Source of the DNA: a virus
IMG/VR virus record: IMGVR_UViG_3300030451_004353
Location: 1-24,589 of that record
DNA length: 24,589 bases
Strand: one strand, 5' to 3'
In this document: one piece after another, positions 2,878 to 15,564 of the stretch
Numbering within the stretch: the first letter of the stretch is position 1
Layout: the number at the start of each line of letters is the position of its first letter
Made by a program: the position numbers and the translations under genes
Notes under the pieces: generated by a model
Databases searched by the model: none
What the model was told of the DNA's origin: nothing
The model's input: only the letters and a program-made list of their open reading frames with translations

Positions 2878-4386
2878 CTAGGAGTTTAATATATCACCAA
2901 CAAAGTCTATCGTTAATGGATCAGTATCGGCTGGTCCTAAAAAATCATCTTGAATAACTTGAAGTGCCAACAAGTAAGCTGCCTCAGGATTATTTCGGGA
3001 TTTTATGTTATAAACATCCATGGCCTGCTGAATTTCGTACTTTCTTCTTTGAATTGGGATCTGGTATTGCCTCTCCAATAACCTAATGACATAGAAGGTC
3101 TTCAATTTCCATCGATAGCTGTATAGCTGATTAAATTCTTCTTTTGTAATTTGACTTCTCTGCACGGTCCTGCTATAGGGAGGACAATCATCTGTAAAAG
3201 ATCCAAGCTTTTGTACCAAAATAGTTGGCTTTTGAGAAATATAAAAATTATAAAAATCTAACAAATATTGTTCAAAGATTTGCATATCTGAAGACCATGT
3301 TTCGGAGTAATCCCGCTCAAACATTGCCACAAATGCACTTCTTTGGTCCTGGGTGTTAAATATAGGCTCCCATCCGCCGCCGGCGGAGGTCTTGTATCTT
3401 TTATACCCAGGCTCATTTCTTATCTCATCGTTAGCATCAAGATATTTAAAGAAAGACACATGCCTCACAACGTCCTCAAGTCCTGGTATCTGGGAAAAGC
3501 CATACGCTCTTGGGGGAAGTTCCACATCTCCAACAAATGGCTCACACACATAGCTCACATTGTCCCTAACATTGAATCCCTCGATAGGTACCCCCAACAT
3601 ATATTCCAACATCGCTGGGTTTCTCAGGTCAGCCACAAGTCTCCATGGAATATTCTTATCTATGGAAAAACCATACTGTGAAGCTATGTTTGCGACGAGG
3701 GCAAAATTAGCATCACCAAACTTATACGCCTTATTGAAATCATCGTCATAATCATCTGAAGAAAGCTCTATCACAAGCCCAGATGCGTACAGTGGGGTCT
3801 TTTGGCTCTCCACTATGCCACTTAATGTAACGGGACCAGCCTTAAGAAGAGAATCTTCTACAAACTCTCCTATTAAATCGATAAAGTTATCAATATTTCT
3901 TAATCTTTCGTCATTCCCATTAGAACTCATAAAGTCTGTGAAAAACGCAGGATATACCGTTGCCCTCATATAATCATCATAAAACGCTGATATTGGTGTC
4001 CATGCCTTGACCGCAAAGGGCTTTGCCCATGGGCTATCACGATAGATGATATTATTATCTGCTAGTTCTTTTAACTTAAGAGCAAAATCATACCAAGCAT
4101 CAACTACAAAATCTATTGCATATAAAGACTCCGACTCTTCCTCTACAAAGGGTAATGATTTTAATCGCCTTGTGTTTGGAAGAACAGAGTATCCTTTATG
4201 ATTTATAGTTCCGTAGAACCTATCTGTAGTCCAAGTCTTTATGAAGTTATTAGCCATGAAATCAGGAAAAACATAATTATCATATCTTTCCCTTTCTTGA
4301 AACACCCTCTTCGAATTAAGAGAGTTAGACCCATACGAATACAAAGAAGGATTTGTTGAGGGGTCTATCTTTTGCTGGCGAGACAT
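2878..4386 (-). CDS. Putative baseplate/tail structural protein, 502 residues, function unknown
   Basis: I do not recognise a named family. The protein is rich in aromatic residues (Tyr, Phe, Trp) and has no signal peptide or membrane helix. A striking segment is YGFSIDKNIPWRLVADL near residues 235-251, followed by a short Met-rich helix. The C-terminal third is helical and charged. It starts 4 nt after the stop of the large hub-like gene and is followed after 10 nt by the polymerase gene. Lying at the end of a run of baseplate genes (tube initiator, gp53, hub-like) makes a baseplate or virion role likely, but that is inference from position. Confidence 0.6.
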   Translation of the reverse strand: MSRQQKIDPSTNPSLYSYGSNSLNSKRVFQERERYDNYVFPDFMANNFIKTWTTDRFYGTINHKGYSVLPNTRRLKSLPFVEEESESLYAIDFVVDAWYDFALKLKELADNNIIYRDSPWAKPFAVKAWTPISAFYDDYMRATVYPAFFTDFMSSNGNDERLRNIDNFIDLIGEFVEDSLLKAGPVTLSGIVESQKTPLYASGLVIELSSDDYDDDFNKAYKFGDANFALVANIASQYGFSIDKNIPWRLVADLRNPAMLEYMLGVPIEGFNVRDNVSYVCEPFVGDVELPPRAYGFSQIPGLEDVVRHVSFFKYLDANDEIRNEPGYKRYKTSAGGGWEPIFNTQDQRSAFVAMFERDYSETWSSDMQIFEQYLLDFYNFYISQKPTILVQKLGSFTDDCPPYSRTVQRSQITKEEFNQLYSYRWKLKTFYVIRLLERQYQIPIQRRKYEIQQAMDVYNIKSRNNPEAAYLLALQVIQDDFLGPADTDPLTIDFVGDILNS

Positions 4387-8517: not shown

Positions 8518-10440
8518 TTAGTTTCTACTTGTCAAGTCCAGGTGAGTATCAAGTGTATTTATTGTTCTTTGGTCTAAAACCTTACCATCAAGCTTAGATG
8601 TCAGATTGACTGTCACATTGGTTGTTTGATCCATATTAGCTCTTCTGCTTCGTCTGGCGGCGCTATTCATTGCAGCATTTGTTGTTGGCGGAGCAGATGG
8701 TTTTCCAAAAATAGCATCATAAGCTTTCAAAGCCGCAAATTCAGATGCTGCGCCGCCGGCGACACCAGCACCAAAAGCGCCGAGGACGCCGACGCCACCC
8801 GTAGCAGCCGTAAGTCCAGCAGCAGTGGCAAGACCACCTATTACATTAGCACCAAGACCAACAATTTGCCTAGCCATGCTTGAGTTTTCATCCATAAGCA
8901 TAGCGCCGCTTGCGCCGGAGGCGATAATGCCGGCTCCAATGGCAGCCTTTGCAGGACCAGGCAAAGCAGTGAGTGCCGCTCGACCTGCCGTTGCTAGCCC
9001 AGCGACTCCCGTAGCTCCAGCCACACCAGTTAGCACCCCTCCTACGCCTGAACTTTTAAGAAGACTAGCAGTTTTTAGTGCCACTAATGCCCCTAATACA
9101 AGAGGTGCCCATTCAACGAATTTGTCAAAGTGTCTATTTATAAAATGTAATATTCTCTCTAACACGGGGACAACATGTTTAGAAAACTGAGTCAATATTT
9201 GTTCTAACAGTTTTGCCATTCTCTCTTGCACAGAGACCATGTCTGTTATTGTTTTTTCTCTTTGTTCCTTTTGAAAAGCTGCAATGTCTACCTTTCCTCC
9301 CAGAAGTCTTGCTGCTGTCTGCTCATCTTGTCCCAAGATATCAGCGATCATTTGGCGCTGACGGCGACCAAGACTTTCAAACTGGATTCCCTGTAGGTTA
9401 AACTCCTGCCTTAAAAGGTCTATGCGGTCCTCTGAACTAGCCTTTAGTAACTCAACAGAATTAAGCTGGAGTCCCAACTGAGCATTTAATCGCCCTGCAA
9501 CATTTGCAGCACTCTCAAATGTATCAAACAATTCACTAATGTCAAAAGCCTGTTTTGTTGTTAGTCCCAACTCCCTAGCTTGCTTTGCAAGCTTCTCAAA
9601 TACTTTTATTCCTTGTTGCCCAAATCTTGCCAAACTAGGACCCAATTCATTAAGATCTGAAACAACGGTCTGAACGGGTCTCCCTATCTCCGTTGCCAAG
9701 CCTTCAAGGCTTCGAGCAGCTTCTGCGGCGGCTTGACCCGTTAGTCCAAAAGAGTAATTAACTGTATCAAGCGCCTGTCCAAAGGCTTGTGTATCAACCC
9801 CTAGGCGAAAAAAACGAGCGCCGATGTCTTCTAGGATTGCCTGTTGTCCATCCCCAAGAGCGTTAAACCTTTGCATCTGAGTGCTTAGACCGTTTATAAT
9901 CTGAGCGCTCTCTTCAAATCCAATTGCTAAGGCTCTATTTCTCTCTGCAAGACCTGTTAGGTTGTCCTGGAAATCCCTGAACATGCCTGTGGTTCTGCCA
10001 AGCTCGACCCTCGACTGGTTAAGTGCAAAAGTAAGATCAATTATTGACTCTATCCAACCCTTTGTTGAGGTGAGAGCGCCGAGGTTTCCAGCCTTTAGAG
10101 TTGTGAGCCCCTGATTAACCGCATCAAGTCCTTTTTTGTACGCATCCATTCTTTTCTGAAGTTTTTCGACCTCTTCCTGCTGGTCTCGCATACTTTGAGT
10201 GATTTCAACTATCTCTTTGTCGGCGTTGCTGAGAGTGCCCTCCAATAGACCAAGTTCAAGGCGAAGGGCTTCAACATTAGAGGCCTGTGTCTCTTCCGCT
10301 AGTTCTAGTTTTTTAAGAGTTGCTAGATACTTCTTTACTGTCTCGTCTTCTTGCCCTAGGGCGGCTATATATGCCTCTCGGGCCTTAGCAAGCTTTGCCG
10401 TCTGCTCTTGTAATCGCTTTATCTGATCTTCTATAGACAC
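8518..10440 (-). CDS. 29: Tail tape measure protein (gp29-like)
   Basis: The 640-residue protein begins with a long coiled coil (about 1-115). A helical middle follows with tape-measure-like segments (NGLSTQMQRF, LEGLATEIGRP). Then comes a hydrophobic, Gly/Ala-rich stretch (roughly 445-580), and a polar tail ending in beta-prone TTNVTVNLTSKLDG. This layout and its place between the tube/chaperone genes and the tube initiator mark the protein that sets tail length and fills the tube. T4 gp29 has 590 residues, so a tail of similar length is expected. The start is GTG with AAGGAG 7 nt upstream; the ribosome site overlaps the TAA stop of the previous gene. Confidence 0.85.
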   Translation of the reverse strand: MSIEDQIKRLQEQTAKLAKAREAYIAALGQEDETVKKYLATLKKLELAEETQASNVEALRLELGLLEGTLSNADKEIVEITQSMRDQQEEVEKLQKRMDAYKKGLDAVNQGLTTLKAGNLGALTSTKGWIESIIDLTFALNQSRVELGRTTGMFRDFQDNLTGLAERNRALAIGFEESAQIINGLSTQMQRFNALGDGQQAILEDIGARFFRLGVDTQAFGQALDTVNYSFGLTGQAAAEAARSLEGLATEIGRPVQTVVSDLNELGPSLARFGQQGIKVFEKLAKQARELGLTTKQAFDISELFDTFESAANVAGRLNAQLGLQLNSVELLKASSEDRIDLLRQEFNLQGIQFESLGRRQRQMIADILGQDEQTAARLLGGKVDIAAFQKEQREKTITDMVSVQERMAKLLEQILTQFSKHVVPVLERILHFINRHFDKFVEWAPLVLGALVALKTASLLKSSGVGGVLTGVAGATGVAGLATAGRAALTALPGPAKAAIGAGIIASGASGAMLMDENSSMARQIVGLGANVIGGLATAAGLTAATGGVGVLGAFGAGVAGGAASEFAALKAYDAIFGKPSAPPTTNAAMNSAARRSRRANMDQTTNVTVNLTSKLDGKVLDQRTINTLDTHLDLTSRN

Positions 10441-10451
10441 TTAAAGACTCC

Positions 10452-10784
10452 TTAGTTGCGTATGGGCCAGTTAATACCAGCTTCCCTCTCAAATCTTTTG
10501 ATAGCAACATCGAGCTTAGCTTTTTGCTTATATGTCATAGGGTCATCAAGACCATATTTCTTGATATAATCCATATATCTTTTTTCATTAACAAGAGTAT
10601 CTGTGAATCTCTCTACTTCTATCCTGTTCCCTCGAACACGAACAGGTATTCTGCGACCCTTGTACATCTTAGACAAAAGGTACTGAATCCAAGCAGCAAA
10701 GACATTTAGGATATTTTCATTGAGTTGCTGCTCTTCACGGAGAGCAGTCAAATCTAGAACCTCATTTTCAAAATCGATATTCAT
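10452..10784 (-). CDS. Small conserved protein upstream of the tape measure, 110 residues
   Basis: The function is unknown. The protein is mainly helical and charged. LREEQQLNEN is at 15-24, followed by a hydrophobic helix (VFAAWIQYLL), a basic strand MYKGRRIPVRVRGNRIEV, and then KKYGLDDPMTYKQKAKLDVA and a GINWP end. I believe similar short proteins precede the tape measure in marine T4-like phages, but could not check. Position suggests a role in tail or baseplate assembly. The start ATG has GAGGT 8 nt upstream, and an exact copy of the late-promoter-like motif lies 27 nt upstream. The stop overlaps the tape measure ribosome site. Confidence 0.7.
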   Translation of the reverse strand: MNIDFENEVLDLTALREEQQLNENILNVFAAWIQYLLSKMYKGRRIPVRVRGNRIEVERFTDTLVNEKRYMDYIKKYGLDDPMTYKQKAKLDVAIKRFEREAGINWPIRN

Positions 10785-10836: not shown

Positions 10837-11067
10837 TCACGAGTTGTACTTAAATGTGTTCTGGGCTCTCTGAGAAGCTGATTTTCCATTCATGGCATCA
10901 GCCTCTTCTTGTTTTTGTTTTATCAATCTTTGAAGCATCCAAAATCGAATACTTACGGGTAGATTATATGCCTCAAAGAAACTCCATCCGCCATAGTGCT
11001 TCAGGTGAAAAATCTGTTCGTAGACAGCTTCTATATACCGATCACTTAGGCCAAAAAAAGTCAACAC
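10837..11067 (-). CDS. Small protein overlapping the gp26-like gene; possible frameshift partner (tail assembly chaperone type)
   Basis: The conserved-looking part is FFGLSDRYIEAVYEQIFHL, then KHYGGWSFFEAYNLP, then a helix ending LQRLIKQKQEEADAMN, then a polar tail. The frame stays open back to 11115, but no ATG lies in the overlap with the gp26-like gene. I chose GTG at 11067 because GGAGG (11077-11081) lies 9 nt upstream; TTG codons at 11070 and 11064 are alternatives, as is TTG at 11115 without a ribosome site. The reading frame is +1 (equally -2) relative to the upstream gene. The sense shared by both frames begins at a T7 run (11053-11059), so the protein may instead be made as a C-terminal extension by frameshifting. 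Genes between tube and tape measure often encode tail assembly chaperones. Confidence 0.65.
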   Translation of the reverse strand: MLTFFGLSDRYIEAVYEQIFHLKHYGGWSFFEAYNLPVSIRFWMLQRLIKQKQEEADAMNGKSASQRAQNTFKYNS

Positions 11068-11917
11068 CAAGCGGAACCTCCATGTCCGCTTCGTGACCGC
11101 AGTTTGAGCAATCAAATTCTTGTTTGAGGTTAATGTTTGGTATTACTTGAGCATAGATCGTTCGGAGATGACGAGCATCTCGTGCTGGCATTGCTTGTAT
11201 AAAAGATTCTACTGTAAAGGGGTTGTTGTCTCCGTTTACCGAAGTGATAAATGCTCTGAAAGCATCTGTCGTGGATGTTGAGTCCATCTTCTTTTTTGAT
11301 TTCCTAAGAGCTTCTTTAGCAACCCTTGTTTCGTCAGCACCTGTCAAAAGACGACACTCAACTTGTGCTCGGGTCATTGGAAGTGTAATGTTTACCGTTC
11401 CGTGAGAACTATAAGTAACCATAAGCTTGTCGGCATTACCCCTAAAGTCAATGACTGGCGGAGAAGAGATATCAAATGAATACTCAACATTTGTAGAGCA
11501 GTTTGGGCACGTAATATTTGTTTCGTACTCTGGACCATACCCTGTGCGACGAGCAGCCACTAGGAGTGCATTCTTATCCCCAACTAAAAGAGTATTGACA
11601 TCTACCCTTTTATCGATAATTAAGTTTTGTAGCATCCTATCAAGAGCTACCCCCTCTTTGAGGAGCGATCTAGAAGTTAAAATATCTTCTTCTTTTGCCG
11701 TCATAAAACGGATCTCAATAGTCCTCTCATTATGAAGAGGATGCCCTGGTGGGTAAAATGTGCCCTCGCTTGGGAGTTCTACAAATTCTGTTGGGACGGA
11801 CCAATTAAAGGCTGGGGCTGTTGCTGTGTTCTGTTCAGTAGCTGAAGCTACAGCAGCAGTCGCACCATCGTCCTGAGGGACATGGTCTAGCCCTAGTCTA
11901 TCGTCATTTCTACTCAT
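11042..11917 (-). CDS. Baseplate hub/tail assembly protein with zinc ribbon (gp26-like)
   Basis: The 291-residue protein has a disordered N-terminus (1-38). A block follows that is typical of T4-type base plate proteins in the gp26 family: FVELPSEGTFYPPGHPLHNE, then IEIRFMTAKEEDILTSRSLL, then QNLIIDKRVD and LLVGDKNALLVAARRTGYG. Two CxxC pairs, C137/C140 and C270/C273, should form one split zinc ribbon. Related proteins in marine T4-like phages are annotated as baseplate hub or hub-assembly proteins; they act during assembly and may chaperone the tape measure. The ATG has AAAGG 7 nt upstream. The 3' end overlaps the next reading frame and contains a T7 slippery run 9 nt before the stop. Confidence 0.75.
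   Translation of the reverse strand: MSRNDDRLGLDHVPQDDGATAAVASATEQNTATAPAFNWSVPTEFVELPSEGTFYPPGHPLHNERTIEIRFMTAKEEDILTSRSLLKEGVALDRMLQNLIIDKRVDVNTLLVGDKNALLVAARRTGYGPEYETNITCPNCSTNVEYSFDISSPPVIDFRGNADKLMVTYSSHGTVNITLPMTRAQVECRLLTGADETRVAKEALRKSKKKMDSTSTTDAFRAFITSVNGDNNPFTVESFIQAMPARDARHLRTIYAQVIPNINLKQEFDCSNCGHEADMEVPLGVDFFWPK
11053..11059 (-). other. T7 run, candidate +1/-2 ribosomal frameshift site
   Basis: Zero-frame codons are GAC TTT TTT TGG CCT AAG TGA. A +1 slip (or a -2 slip) on the T-run enters GGC CTA AGT GAT, which begins the conserved part of the next protein. A -1 slip meets TAA after two codons (TTG GCC) and is ruled out. A fusion would have about 359 residues. GGAGG lies 17 nt upstream of the run. 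Confidence 0.4.
11077..11081 (-). promoter_or_regulatory. Internal GGAGG ribosome binding site within the gp26-like gene
   Basis: It lies 9 nt before the GTG at 11067 and so decides the start chosen for the overlapping small gene. It could also act as an internal Shine-Dalgarno element that pauses ribosomes before the T7 run. Confidence 0.5.
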
Positions 11918-11969: not shown

Positions 11970-12539
11970 TTATCCACGAGTAGATGCTGGGACGTTAGAT
12001 GACACTCCACTTCTCGATAGCTCTGCCCAGTCGTATGTGATCTGGACTGTAACTTCTGTCATCTCATCAGAGTCGTAAGACAGAGTACCACCAAAATCAA
12101 TATTTGTAATGATTGGGTTGATAAGTTCCCATCTTTCAATCTCTTTTCCATCAGCATCCAACTGCTTGATGACAACAGCACCGATGGTATTCTTAAAAGC
12201 TTCCTTGCTTAAGCTAACTTTTGAAATGTCAGCAGTATCAGGATACTTATATCCAGAAGCACCCAAAACATCTAGGAAAGCAAATGACAAGTCTGGGTTA
12301 ACTGGGTCTACCAAAGTTACTGTGATTGGCTCCCAAGTTACACGACCTGGAAAGTTGAATGTATGGTCAATATATTGGTGAGTGATTGTACTTACAGCGG
12401 CGACAGGCTTTGTTGCTGTCTTGACAGACCAAACAGGAATATCGCCAGGCTGATTTCCGTTTCTAGATGTAAAACTTAACTCAAACCGAAATTGACGTTT
12501 TGGTTCTGCGTTTGCTTGACCCCAAAATAGACTTGCCAT
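11970..12539 (-). CDS. 19: Tail tube protein (gp19-like)
   Basis: The 189-residue protein matches the T4 gp19 tube fold in length and pattern. QFRFELSFTSRNG (17-29) is followed by IPVWSVKTATKPV, then HTFNFPGRVTWEPITVTLVD and a long helical insertion. The closing strands are NPIITNIDFGGTLSYDSDEM and EVTVQITYDWAEL. It polymerises into the inner tube through which DNA passes. It lies directly downstream of the sheath gene, the usual 18-19 pairing. The ATG has GAGGAG 11 nt upstream and a variant promoter motif 19 nt upstream, so extra tube transcript may be made independently of the sheath. Confidence 0.9.
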   Translation of the reverse strand: MASLFWGQANAEPKRQFRFELSFTSRNGNQPGDIPVWSVKTATKPVAAVSTITHQYIDHTFNFPGRVTWEPITVTLVDPVNPDLSFAFLDVLGASGYKYPDTADISKVSLSKEAFKNTIGAVVIKQLDADGKEIERWELINPIITNIDFGGTLSYDSDEMTEVTVQITYDWAELSRSGVSSNVPASTRG

Positions 12540-12579: not shown

Positions 12580-15564
12580 TTAATCCTCGAAGGACGCCCC
12601 ACTGTTTGTAATTATGAAGTCGATTGCGAAGAACTCTACAGCACGGGTTGGCTTCACATACAACTTAGCATAAATGATGTTGCGATCAATAAGATCTGGT
12701 GTGGTTGTTGATTCATCCAAGATTAGTCGGAAGTCTTCAATACCGAACTGAGACTTGACATCACGAAGGACTGGCTCAGCCTGACCCAAGAAGCGATCCC
12801 ATGTTGCTTGTGCATTTGGAGCAAATAGAAGTCTTGAGGCGATGAAGGAGATTTCACGCTTCAAGTAAATCATCAAGCGGCGGACATTAATTCGATCAAG
12901 AGCACTTGCTGTTTGTTGTAGTGTCTTTTGCCCGAAGATGACAATCCCCTCTGCTGGGAATTTAGCGATTGGGTTAATGTTGTTTTCGTAGAGCGTATCA
13001 CGATCATCAGATGTTAGTCTGCGTGATACGTCTAGAACTGGGACACCAGCAGCACCTTCGCTCAACCCGCCACGGGTGAAGCCTGCTGGAGCAAACCAAG
13101 GTGCCTGCTGCCTATCAGTGTTAGAAAGAACACCGAGTGCGGCAACTGATGGTGGTGCCCATAGGCTTTGGTTTGTGTTGTTATCCAAAATCCTTACCCA
13201 TGGGTAGTAGGTTGCACCATAACTGTTGTTAATGCTGCGGTTAGCTAATGCTGTGGCAGCAGCAGATGGTGTATTACCTTCATTGCGGCTTTCCGCTGAG
13301 CCAGTGTCTTCTGTGTCTGGTGTGTAAGCATTTGGAATATCGATGATTGCCAAAGTATCAGCACGATCTTCGGCAGTTTCCAAAAGGTAATCGGTTACAC
13401 CAGCAACTGTTACACCTGGGATGGTGATAGCATTCATTTCCACATCATCAGGATCTGCTACTATGTTAATTGACTTACGTAGCGAGAATAGCTCATAGGA
13501 GTTCTTCTCGTTTGTAGCATCAGTAAACTTAGAGTTTCTAAATGGCTCTCTTTCAGTAATGTCATAGCCGTCAAAACCGCCATGAAGAACAGTTGTAAAG
13601 CGATCCAAACCAGCAGTAAGAACTGATTTATATGAGCCACCTGTTGCGCTAACACTGCTTCCAGCGCTGCGGTAAGTGCTGCTGTAAGCATATCCATCAG
13701 CCGCAGATCCTGAGATATTGTCCAAAGAGAAAGCCCAAGAAATTTCATATGGCTGAGTTAGTATATATGTGCTTGTTTCTCCCGCAACATCGACATCTGT
13801 GCTAGCTGGATTGTCATTGATGCCACTCAAGTCAAAACTTCTTGGTCTCAAGCAATCAAGTGTTTGCTGAGCAAAGAAGGTATCAGTAGCACTTCTTCCT
13901 GTCCAAGCTCCCCAGTAGGTGTTTCGCAAGCTGCGAGGAGAGCCCCAGGTGCTGCCTCCACGAAGAGGAACACTTGGGAACTGAATAGAACCTGAGAATT
14001 TGCTTCCATTGCCTGACTGAGCACCATCTAGACTTAGAATGTCAGTACCATACAAGTTCCCAGCAGTACCATAAGATCCAGTGTTTGCACCATTTATCAT
14101 TGTGAAAACTGATCTCTGAGAAGCCGAAAGAGGAACTCTTCCTGTAGCCAAAGAGCTAAAGCCAGCAGAACCACTGACAACGTTTACATCTCTGTATTTT
14201 AGTGGTCCGAAGACTCCGAAAGGTAGCCATCGAGTTTCGCCTGAACCAGCAGCAACGTCTTCGTTCATAACAACACGAACAAAGTTAGACTGATTATCAA
14301 ACTCGCCATACTCTACATTTCTTTTGTCTGTTTGACTATAGACTTGGTACTTATCACCAATTCTCTTGGCAATATAATTTTCAGACGCTGGATTGAGGTT
14401 CAACTCATCAAAGCGCTCAATAATTTGTGGGCGAGCATCAGTATCTGAAATGCTTCTGATCAATACTGAGAATGATCCATAATCTTGATAGTCTCCAGAT
14501 GGAGCCTTAATGTTAGAAATAGAAATCTTTATTTCTCTCTGTGCCCACTCACCAGCAGATATAGCCTCAAGGCGGAAAAGCTTTTGCTGAGCCCTGGCAG
14601 CATAAGCTCCTGTATTTGTGCTGAGATCCTGAGAAAGGAACCATCCTGTAGTTGCCTTCTTTGAAGCACCTTTCCAGTTGTTCTGCTGGGCACTCCCTGA
14701 AGAAGCAGCCATTGGGAACATTGCGGCATGGAATTTTGTTGGCTTAGAAGATAGTAGACCAATAGAGTTATCTCCCTTAGTCTCCAAAGAGTATTCATAA
14801 GACTCGCCGAGCCAATAAGATCCGCTCTGATAGAAATCACGAGTTGATTGCGTGGTAATGTTCGCATTAGTGATGGATGCATTTGTATTAAGAACTTTTC
14901 TGATAAAGTTTTCTGAATCAGGGTTCAAGCTCACGGTTACTTCATTTTCATAGCTCCCAGTGGGTGTTGTGAAAACAAGCTTAAAATCGTTCTCGGTAGA
15001 AACCTCATAAAGAGTTGAACCAAGCTTTCCAGGGACAGTCGAAGCTGCGCCTGAAAGAAGGACACGACCTGTTGAGCTATAGAATTGTGCTGCGACGGCT
15101 CCAGAAACTGTAGTAGCCAAATCAGCACTCAAAGAGGACGATGGCCAGACCACCAAAGCAAAAACACCGCCATTGTTGTCCGTATTAACTTTAGGTACTG
15201 ACCAGCCTGCCTTGCCAGCGTTTGTAGCGTTTGTGTCCTGGTCTCCCAGGGTTCTAACGAATGTAAGAGGAGAGTTATTTCTCAGCCAAGCCTTAGCAGC
15301 AAATGCAGCATAGGTTGGAGCGGTATTGTTGCCCTCACGCCAGGCGTCGCCGCCTTCATTACCTGCAACTGGGTTGCCGAAAGTCTGAACAAAATCAGAG
15401 TATGATTCTACTCGAACTGGCTTGTCAGCAGGTCCCTTGCGGGAACGACCAATAACTACTGGTCCTACTTCAGTTGGTGTAGCTGGAAGCTGTGATTGAT
15501 CTATTTCGTCAATGAACACTCCAGGTGAAATGAACTTAAACTTTTTAGAAGAGTTGTCAGCCAT
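12580..15564 (-). CDS. 18: Tail sheath protein (gp18-like), enlarged
   Basis: At 994 residues it is about 335 longer than T4 gp18 (659). The N-terminus is typical of sheaths: FISPGVFIDEIDQSQLP (11-27), then PVVIGRSRKGPADKPVRVES, then YSDFVQTFGNP. The C-terminal 130 residues hold the conserved core that binds tube and neighbours: INVRRLMIYLKREISFIASR, then LLFAPNAQATWDRF, and the handshake-type end YVKPTRAVEFFAIDFIITN. The middle (about 115-790) is Ser/Thr/Gly/Asn-rich and beta-prone, and probably forms protruding domains on the outside of the sheath. The protein contracts on infection to drive the tube through the envelope. It starts with GAGGAG 11 nt before ATG; an exact promoter-like motif lies 66 nt upstream. 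Confidence 0.92.
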   Translation of the reverse strand: MADNSSKKFKFISPGVFIDEIDQSQLPATPTEVGPVVIGRSRKGPADKPVRVESYSDFVQTFGNPVAGNEGGDAWREGNNTAPTYAAFAAKAWLRNNSPLTFVRTLGDQDTNATNAGKAGWSVPKVNTDNNGGVFALVVWPSSSLSADLATTVSGAVAAQFYSSTGRVLLSGAASTVPGKLGSTLYEVSTENDFKLVFTTPTGSYENEVTVSLNPDSENFIRKVLNTNASITNANITTQSTRDFYQSGSYWLGESYEYSLETKGDNSIGLLSSKPTKFHAAMFPMAASSGSAQQNNWKGASKKATTGWFLSQDLSTNTGAYAARAQQKLFRLEAISAGEWAQREIKISISNIKAPSGDYQDYGSFSVLIRSISDTDARPQIIERFDELNLNPASENYIAKRIGDKYQVYSQTDKRNVEYGEFDNQSNFVRVVMNEDVAAGSGETRWLPFGVFGPLKYRDVNVVSGSAGFSSLATGRVPLSASQRSVFTMINGANTGSYGTAGNLYGTDILSLDGAQSGNGSKFSGSIQFPSVPLRGGSTWGSPRSLRNTYWGAWTGRSATDTFFAQQTLDCLRPRSFDLSGINDNPASTDVDVAGETSTYILTQPYEISWAFSLDNISGSAADGYAYSSTYRSAGSSVSATGGSYKSVLTAGLDRFTTVLHGGFDGYDITEREPFRNSKFTDATNEKNSYELFSLRKSINIVADPDDVEMNAITIPGVTVAGVTDYLLETAEDRADTLAIIDIPNAYTPDTEDTGSAESRNEGNTPSAAATALANRSINNSYGATYYPWVRILDNNTNQSLWAPPSVAALGVLSNTDRQQAPWFAPAGFTRGGLSEGAAGVPVLDVSRRLTSDDRDTLYENNINPIAKFPAEGIVIFGQKTLQQTASALDRINVRRLMIYLKREISFIASRLLFAPNAQATWDRFLGQAEPVLRDVKSQFGIEDFRLILDESTTTPDLIDRNIIYAKLYVKPTRAVEFFAIDFIITNSGASFED

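Follow-up and report, generated by a model that had tools for sequence, protein, structure and literature searches.

Frameshifting in tail chaperone genes is a known phenomenon, and the question raised by the present locus is whether a gp26-like gene of the T4 supergroup also uses it to encode a short and a long product. The locus is carried by IMGVR_UViG_3300030451_004353, the record of an uncultured T4-like marine virus whose relatives number in the hundreds, and the window denotes the whole stretch of DNA that was analysed, namely, 24,589 nucleotides (positions 1 to 24,589 of the record). The original prediction placed a programmed +1 or −2 frameshift at a run of seven T residues between the gp26-like gene and the next reading frame, and offered internal initiation at GTG 11067 after GGAGG as the alternative. 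It also cautioned that such shifting had yet to be established for T4-type gp26, and the literature agrees (PMC5009743, PMC10885494). A programmed frameshift at the T-run accounts for the comparative data presented here far better than any other reading; we consider it highly probable that a ribosomal +1 frameshift operates in this tail assembly chaperone gene of the T4 supergroup, thereby yielding a short and a long product.

Locus layout

All features described in the window lie on the minus strand. The T4-like nature of the record is indicated by its capsid protein, which matches Gp23 (E 1.3e-71). The gp26-like open reading frame (ORF) occupies 11042..11917, encodes 291 aa and corresponds to a short tail assembly chaperone (TAC-N), with matches to PF12322 (E=1.7e-17; 64.3 bits, curated cut-off 24.5) and phrog_150 (E=9.7e-18). 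It is flanked on one side by a gp19-like tail tube protein gene (11970..12539; phrog_4542, E=2.9e-23) and on the other side by a probable tape measure protein gene with weak matches (8518..10440; phrog_167, E=6e-4; phrog_1533, E=1.4e-3). The same order of tube, chaperone and tape measure genes is repeated in the records of phages immuto, SP-15 and LIS04. A 110-aa ORF without a family match (10452..10784) is situated between the chaperone and the tape measure genes, and the corresponding position in Mel-JY01, immuto and SP-15 likewise contains a short ORF. The tail sheath ORF (12580-15564, 994 aa) has sheath-domain matches confined to its last 290 residues. A match to a family A DNA polymerase was found at 1647-2867 (PF00476, E 4.7e-16), alongside the T4-type Gp23 capsid protein; the DNA polymerase of T4 belongs to family B.

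The gp26-like ORF ends with ...GGT GTT GAC TTT TTT TGG CCT AAG TGA, and the ORF at 11115-10837 lies in the +1 frame relative to it. The two frames overlap by 74 nt, from TTG 11115 to the upstream stop, and the overlap contains no ATG, both as originally described; the possible starts there are only TTG 11115, TTG 11070, GTG 11067 and TTG 11064. The T7 run was also located correctly (11053..11059; 0-frame GAC TTT TTT TGG), with a spacing to the 0-frame stop TGA (11042..11044) of 8 nt rather than 9. The 33.7-kb parent record contains GACTTTTTTTGGCC just once. The run is preceded by a GAC codon (11060..11062) and followed by the 0-frame codons TGG CCT AAG (11045..11053), which are dual-coded with GGC CTA AGT. 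From GGC at 11052, the +1 frame continues for 71 codons plus a stop (10837..11052) and begins GLSDRYIEAVYEQIFHLKHYGGWSFFEAYNLPVSIRFWMLQRL; this extension (TAC-C) is recognised by its conservation in relatives, its ratio of nonsynonymous to synonymous change (dN/dS) and a profile match.

In the proposed mechanism, the majority of ribosomes would read to TGA and release the short gp26-like chaperone of 291 aa. A minority would slip one base forward on the U-run, with peptidyl-Phe-tRNA (anticodon GAA) moving from UUU to the overlapping UUU, or to UUC in some relatives. The slipped ribosome would read on with GGC CTA to give a long chaperone with a helical C-terminal domain, and the length of this fusion, 359 residues, is as originally calculated. 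If the two products act like lambda gpG and gpGT, coating of the tape measure protein would fall to the short form and recruitment of tube subunits to the less abundant long form.

Conservation of both protein parts

Relatives were collected in three samples. The scan seeded with the upstream protein retained 80 loci, of which 52 were distinct at below 95% identity (set 1); a scan with the downstream domain added 64 further loci (set 2), giving 116 in the clade. A second clade comprised 56 distinct loci related to a protein of Flavobacterium phage immuto, and 172 distinct metagenome loci were thus available overall. The +1 layout and the U-run are kept in the 52 non-redundant relatives and the 64 further loci; the layout is therefore more than a product of chance.

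The +1-frame product is a 71-residue helical domain with the core GGWSFFEAYNLPV.IR.WFL.RL, which is present in 52/52 non-redundant relatives. Beyond the 0-frame stop, dN/dS is mostly 0.01-0.15 where dS is computable and resembles that of the upstream gene, indicating that this frame is under purifying selection and encodes protein. A short and a longer product sharing the N-terminal part are thus both encoded and conserved at the level of the genes, which were the objects examined. Fold models were made for the two domains separately. The AlphaFold2 (AF2) model of the gp26-like protein reached a pLDDT of 87 and retrieved many T4-type baseplate hub (assembly) proteins in Foldseek, with E down to 1e-20; the +1 domain retrieved weak matches only. 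Searches of the PDB by fold and by sequence returned nothing significant, with the HK97 chaperone 2ob9 at E 1.7 only. A search of genome contigs with the +1 domain found no relatives, and a locus search with the SP-15 protein found SP-15 itself only.

Proposed slip site among relatives

The C-terminal domain is in the +1 frame in 116/116 clade loci, and in all 116 the two codons before TGG offer a UUU with U or C as the next base. The motif is TTT TTT TGG in 101 loci, TTC TTT TGG in nine, TTT CTA TGG in three and TTT CTT TGG in three, and the site is exactly TTTTTTTGGCCT in 94 of the 116. The TGG after the slip is invariant in the clade and the CCT nearly so. The immuto-like clade shows the +1 layout in 56/56 loci with TTT CTT TGG CCT, TTT TTT TGG CCT or TTT CTA TGG CCT; every listed shift motif contains UUU-pyrimidine and none has a T before the run. 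The +1 layout was also found in Microcystis phage Mel-JY01, immuto, SP-15, LIS04, GXN1 and record LR756508. A P-site codon able to re-pair one base forward is thus available as UUU-pyrimidine throughout the clade and in the listed immuto-like motifs. The P-site would differ by variant, TTC TTT T requiring the second Phe codon and TTT CTA T the first. In an experiment that varied the codon preceding the prfB stop, UUU ranked among the next most slippery codons (PMC10885494).

The base preceding the run is T in 0/116 clade loci. Where codon −3 encodes Asp or Asn, it ends in C in 36/36 cases in set 1, compared with a background of 38%, and in 48/48 cases in set 2, and Asp/Asn codons elsewhere are T-ending in 62%. 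Because the third base of GAC is never T, the run is held at seven and the −1 heptamer T_TTT_TTT is removed. A non-T base before the run in the +1 clades would stop tandem −1 slippage. A canonical −1 signal, that is, an X_XXY_YYZ heptamer leading into an open −1 frame, was not found at these loci, where the domain lies in the +1 frame; the −1 frame closes after one codon in 94/116 clade loci.

Alternative explanations

The original prediction left the direction open between +1 and −2, and only the former has stood. A −2 ribosomal frameshift as in phage Mu, which would give DFFFGLSD instead of DFFGLSD, draws on the fact that T7 permits two-base-back P-site re-pairing in most relatives, and the GGAGG 17 nt upstream would, if anything, draw the ribosome backward. 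However, TTC TTT TGG and TTT CTA TGG keep both the domain and the frame without two-base-back pairing, whereas they allow a +1 movement of Phe-tRNA from UUU to UUU or UUC, and +1 fits all 116 loci; the direction thus resolves to +1, and a −2 slip is very unlikely. Relatives in which the T-run is broken and both proteins are kept, which had been named in advance as evidence against a frameshift, do occur, but solely with substitutions preserving UUU-pyrimidine. The same interrupted runs bear on transcriptional slippage, in which RNA polymerase would omit one U. A 7-base homopolymer could slip and the loss of one U would lead to the same fusion, but the arrangement is kept where the run is broken to TTTCTATGG or TTCTTTTGG and seven bases are short for such slippage, making this explanation extremely unlikely. 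Homopolymer miscalls are known to produce false frameshifts, and a single in-frame gene disrupted by a sequencing error was also considered; the same frame break recurs in 172 distinct loci from metagenomes as well as in the genomes of cultured phages, the run being interrupted in many of them, and the 0-frame retains WP followed by a stop. The interrupted-run variants already refute this explanation, the probability of which is negligible.

Two points favour separate initiation of the second protein within the final part of the gp26-like gene, either at TTG/GTG/TTG (11062..11070, in the +1 frame) after GGAGG or at TTG 11115: the spacing from GGAGG to the starts is good in the window (6-12 nt), and nine relatives have an ATG at codon −5. 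However, the possible internal starts, including the GTG 11067 that had been proposed, are not conserved. Among the 97 loci bearing GGNGG, 27 have starts at codons −6 to −4, compared with a background of 25%, and GGAGG was rejected as a start signal since starts following the box do not exceed the background frequency. In 35/116 loci (16/52 in set 1 and 19/64 in set 2), no ATG, GTG or TTG occurs in the open +1 frame ahead of the shift, and a stop stands directly before ACT/AAT TTT TTT GGC in loci L002, L010, L013, L064 and L077. Among the immuto-like loci, 13/56 are without ATG/GTG/TTG upstream of the shift. Internal initiation also leaves the constraint on the U-run unexplained and is judged highly unlikely, and the ribosomal +1 frameshift at the U-run is retained as the preferred reading.

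Nucleotide-level constraint and candidate stimulators

Synonymous change in 112 near-neighbour pairs was approximately equal to expectation (ratio ~1) along the gene and fell to 0.56-0.42 in windows covering codons −13 to about +5, with P-values for synonymous sites and codons that assume independence and ignore phylogeny and are thus indicative only. The minimum of 0.42 is reached only at the shift, and the ratio is ~1 again from codon +4 downstream. Constraint falls on codon −9, codon −3, the Phe codons and TGG CCT. That codons beyond +4 are free of it speaks against an RNA structure downstream; neither a stable nor a conserved RNA fold was detected, and the folding z-scores at the site were unremarkable (−1.2, −1.1). 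An upstream hairpin, GCGGA/TCCGC (−36 to −32 and −22 to −18 from TGG), is complete in just 20/52 relatives and was dropped as a general stimulator on this count and on the plain z-scores.

The GGAGG box was confirmed at 11077..11081, 17 nt before the first TTT. Codon −9 is GAG in 44/44 Glu codons, compared with a background of 44%, and GCG or GGG where the residue changes; its third G is invariant in set 1 (52/52; GAG/GCG/GGG). In set 2, codon −9 is GAG in 52/64 loci and the GGNGG box is absent in the others, and the box was not seen in the immuto-like clade. This Shine-Dalgarno (SD)-like box is a possible frameshift stimulator that is not universal, and its loss in part of set 2, together with its not being seen in the immuto-like clade, makes it a modulator at most. 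The GGNGG box is synonymously constrained, and its position 17 nt ahead of the slip corresponds neither to the prfB nor to the dnaX spacing. No stimulator shared by every clade was found.

Relationship to T4 gp26 and gp51 and the cyanophage counterpart

Judged by profile comparison, both protein parts appear to belong to the gp26/gp51 families. T4 gp26 and gp51 are both members of PF12322 (gp26, 215.6 bits, E 8.8e-64; gp51, 177.5 bits, E 3.9e-52), the family of the gp26-like ORF. When their profiles were compared directly, the +1 domain and the T4 gp51 tail did not match. The +1 domain is colinear with the −1-frame gp51 domain of cyanophages in profile comparison (90.5%, E 1.4e-6; reversed control 0.2%), and the cyanophage domain in turn matches the C-terminal tail of T4 gp51 (98.3%, E 1.7e-14). 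These alignments through the cyanophage domain suggest that the 0-frame product is the gp26-like short chaperone and the fusion the gp51-like long one. T4 shares with the present locus the Pfam family and, via cyanophages, a C-terminal extension of gp51 that is probably homologous to the +1 domain; it differs in having two separate genes on opposite strands, for which no frameshift is needed. Clade records of 111-188 kb contain one PF12322 locus, compared with two genes in T4, and a T4-type pair of separate complete genes for the short and long forms was not found in these records; the fusion is therefore without a visible substitute there.

The short gp51 of cyanophage P-HM1 (53 aa, L181:8677-9557) is in the −1 frame after gp26 and carries its own gene annotation. 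All 62 distinct loci examined (among L182-L261) have NNT TTT TTC or NNT TTT TTA at the junction, which constitutes a classical −1 heptamer, and the base before the run in these cyanophage-type loci is T in 62/62. The cyanophage gp51 is probably a −1 frameshift extension of gp26. Several cyanophage junctions are without ATG. Poly-T −1 signals in T4-like TAC-N genes have been mentioned as known, a comment that probably refers to cases of the cyanophage type (PMC12846349). The cyanophage and present loci thus have in common a single PF12322 gene, a short homologous C-domain and a U-run at the junction, whereas they differ in frame and in the preceding base: −1 with T_TTT_TTC/A and a T before the run in cyanophages, +1 and never T here. 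We propose, with about even confidence, that sister lineages shift in opposite directions on a homologous U-run (−1 for cyanophages; +1 for the uncultured clade and its Flavobacterium, Microcystis and SP-15 relatives), with the direction set by whether the base before the run is T, and that T4 dispensed with it through separate genes. Under this proposal, the +1 signal may need no stop codon, rare codon or downstream structure, and may be partly tuned by an unusually distant SD-like box. With the one-gene +1 arrangement of PF12322 placed beside the cyanophage −1 version, the route to T4 genes 26/51 and the switch of frameshift direction become testable.

The 595-kb jumbo-phage record LR756511.1 (L087) places the C-domain in the other frame, and stop and start codons overlap there as TAATG. 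Its second domain reads as a translationally coupled separate gene and not as a +1 fusion, indicating that the frameshift is not universal in the family.

Comparison with known systems and implications

The lambda gpG/gpGT system resembles the present one in that a single locus, placed between the tube and tape measure genes, encodes a short chaperone together with an extended fusion produced by frameshifting, and differs in its −1 shift, whereas +1 at UUU-pyrimidine in a PF12322 protein is proposed here. The long chaperone of phage Mu likewise requires a frameshift, and its −2 shift leads to the same net frame as +1; the −2 re-pairing is impossible in several relatives here. HSTV-2, a haloarchaeal myovirus, is reported very likely to use +1 in a counterpart of G-T frameshifting (PMC5009743); it is an archaeal virus, and the likeness considered here is that of a +1 shift in a myovirus. 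The same 2016 recoding review describes G-T frameshifting as widely conserved 'except T4' (PMC5009743). A passage in PMC10885494, citing Vladimirov, Gautam and Davidson (2022; Virology 566:9-15), states that T4-like phages use two genes, some with one short and one fused gene. In the literature consulted, a +1 version within the T4 supergroup appears not to have been described before.

The results also correct annotation: across hundreds of contigs, and in isolates including immuto, SP-15 and LIS04, the C-terminal domain has either been left unannotated or been entered as a hypothetical protein of its own. For the study of recoding, the clades provide a naturally varied +1 site (UUU_U, UUU_C) without an A-site stop codon. 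The prfB gene, which encodes RF2, also relies on a +1 slip of the P-site tRNA, on CUU_U, and influenza PA-X is produced by a +1 slip of the P-site tRNA on UUU_C. Compared with prfB and PA-X, the present site has no stop codon in the A-site, and its SD-like box, which is not universal, stands at a distance of 17 nt instead of 3. In Streptococcus phage vB_SagM-GXN1 (L086), the junction near 3727 has the site TTC TTT CGT, which is like the UUU_CGU +1 site of influenza PA-X.
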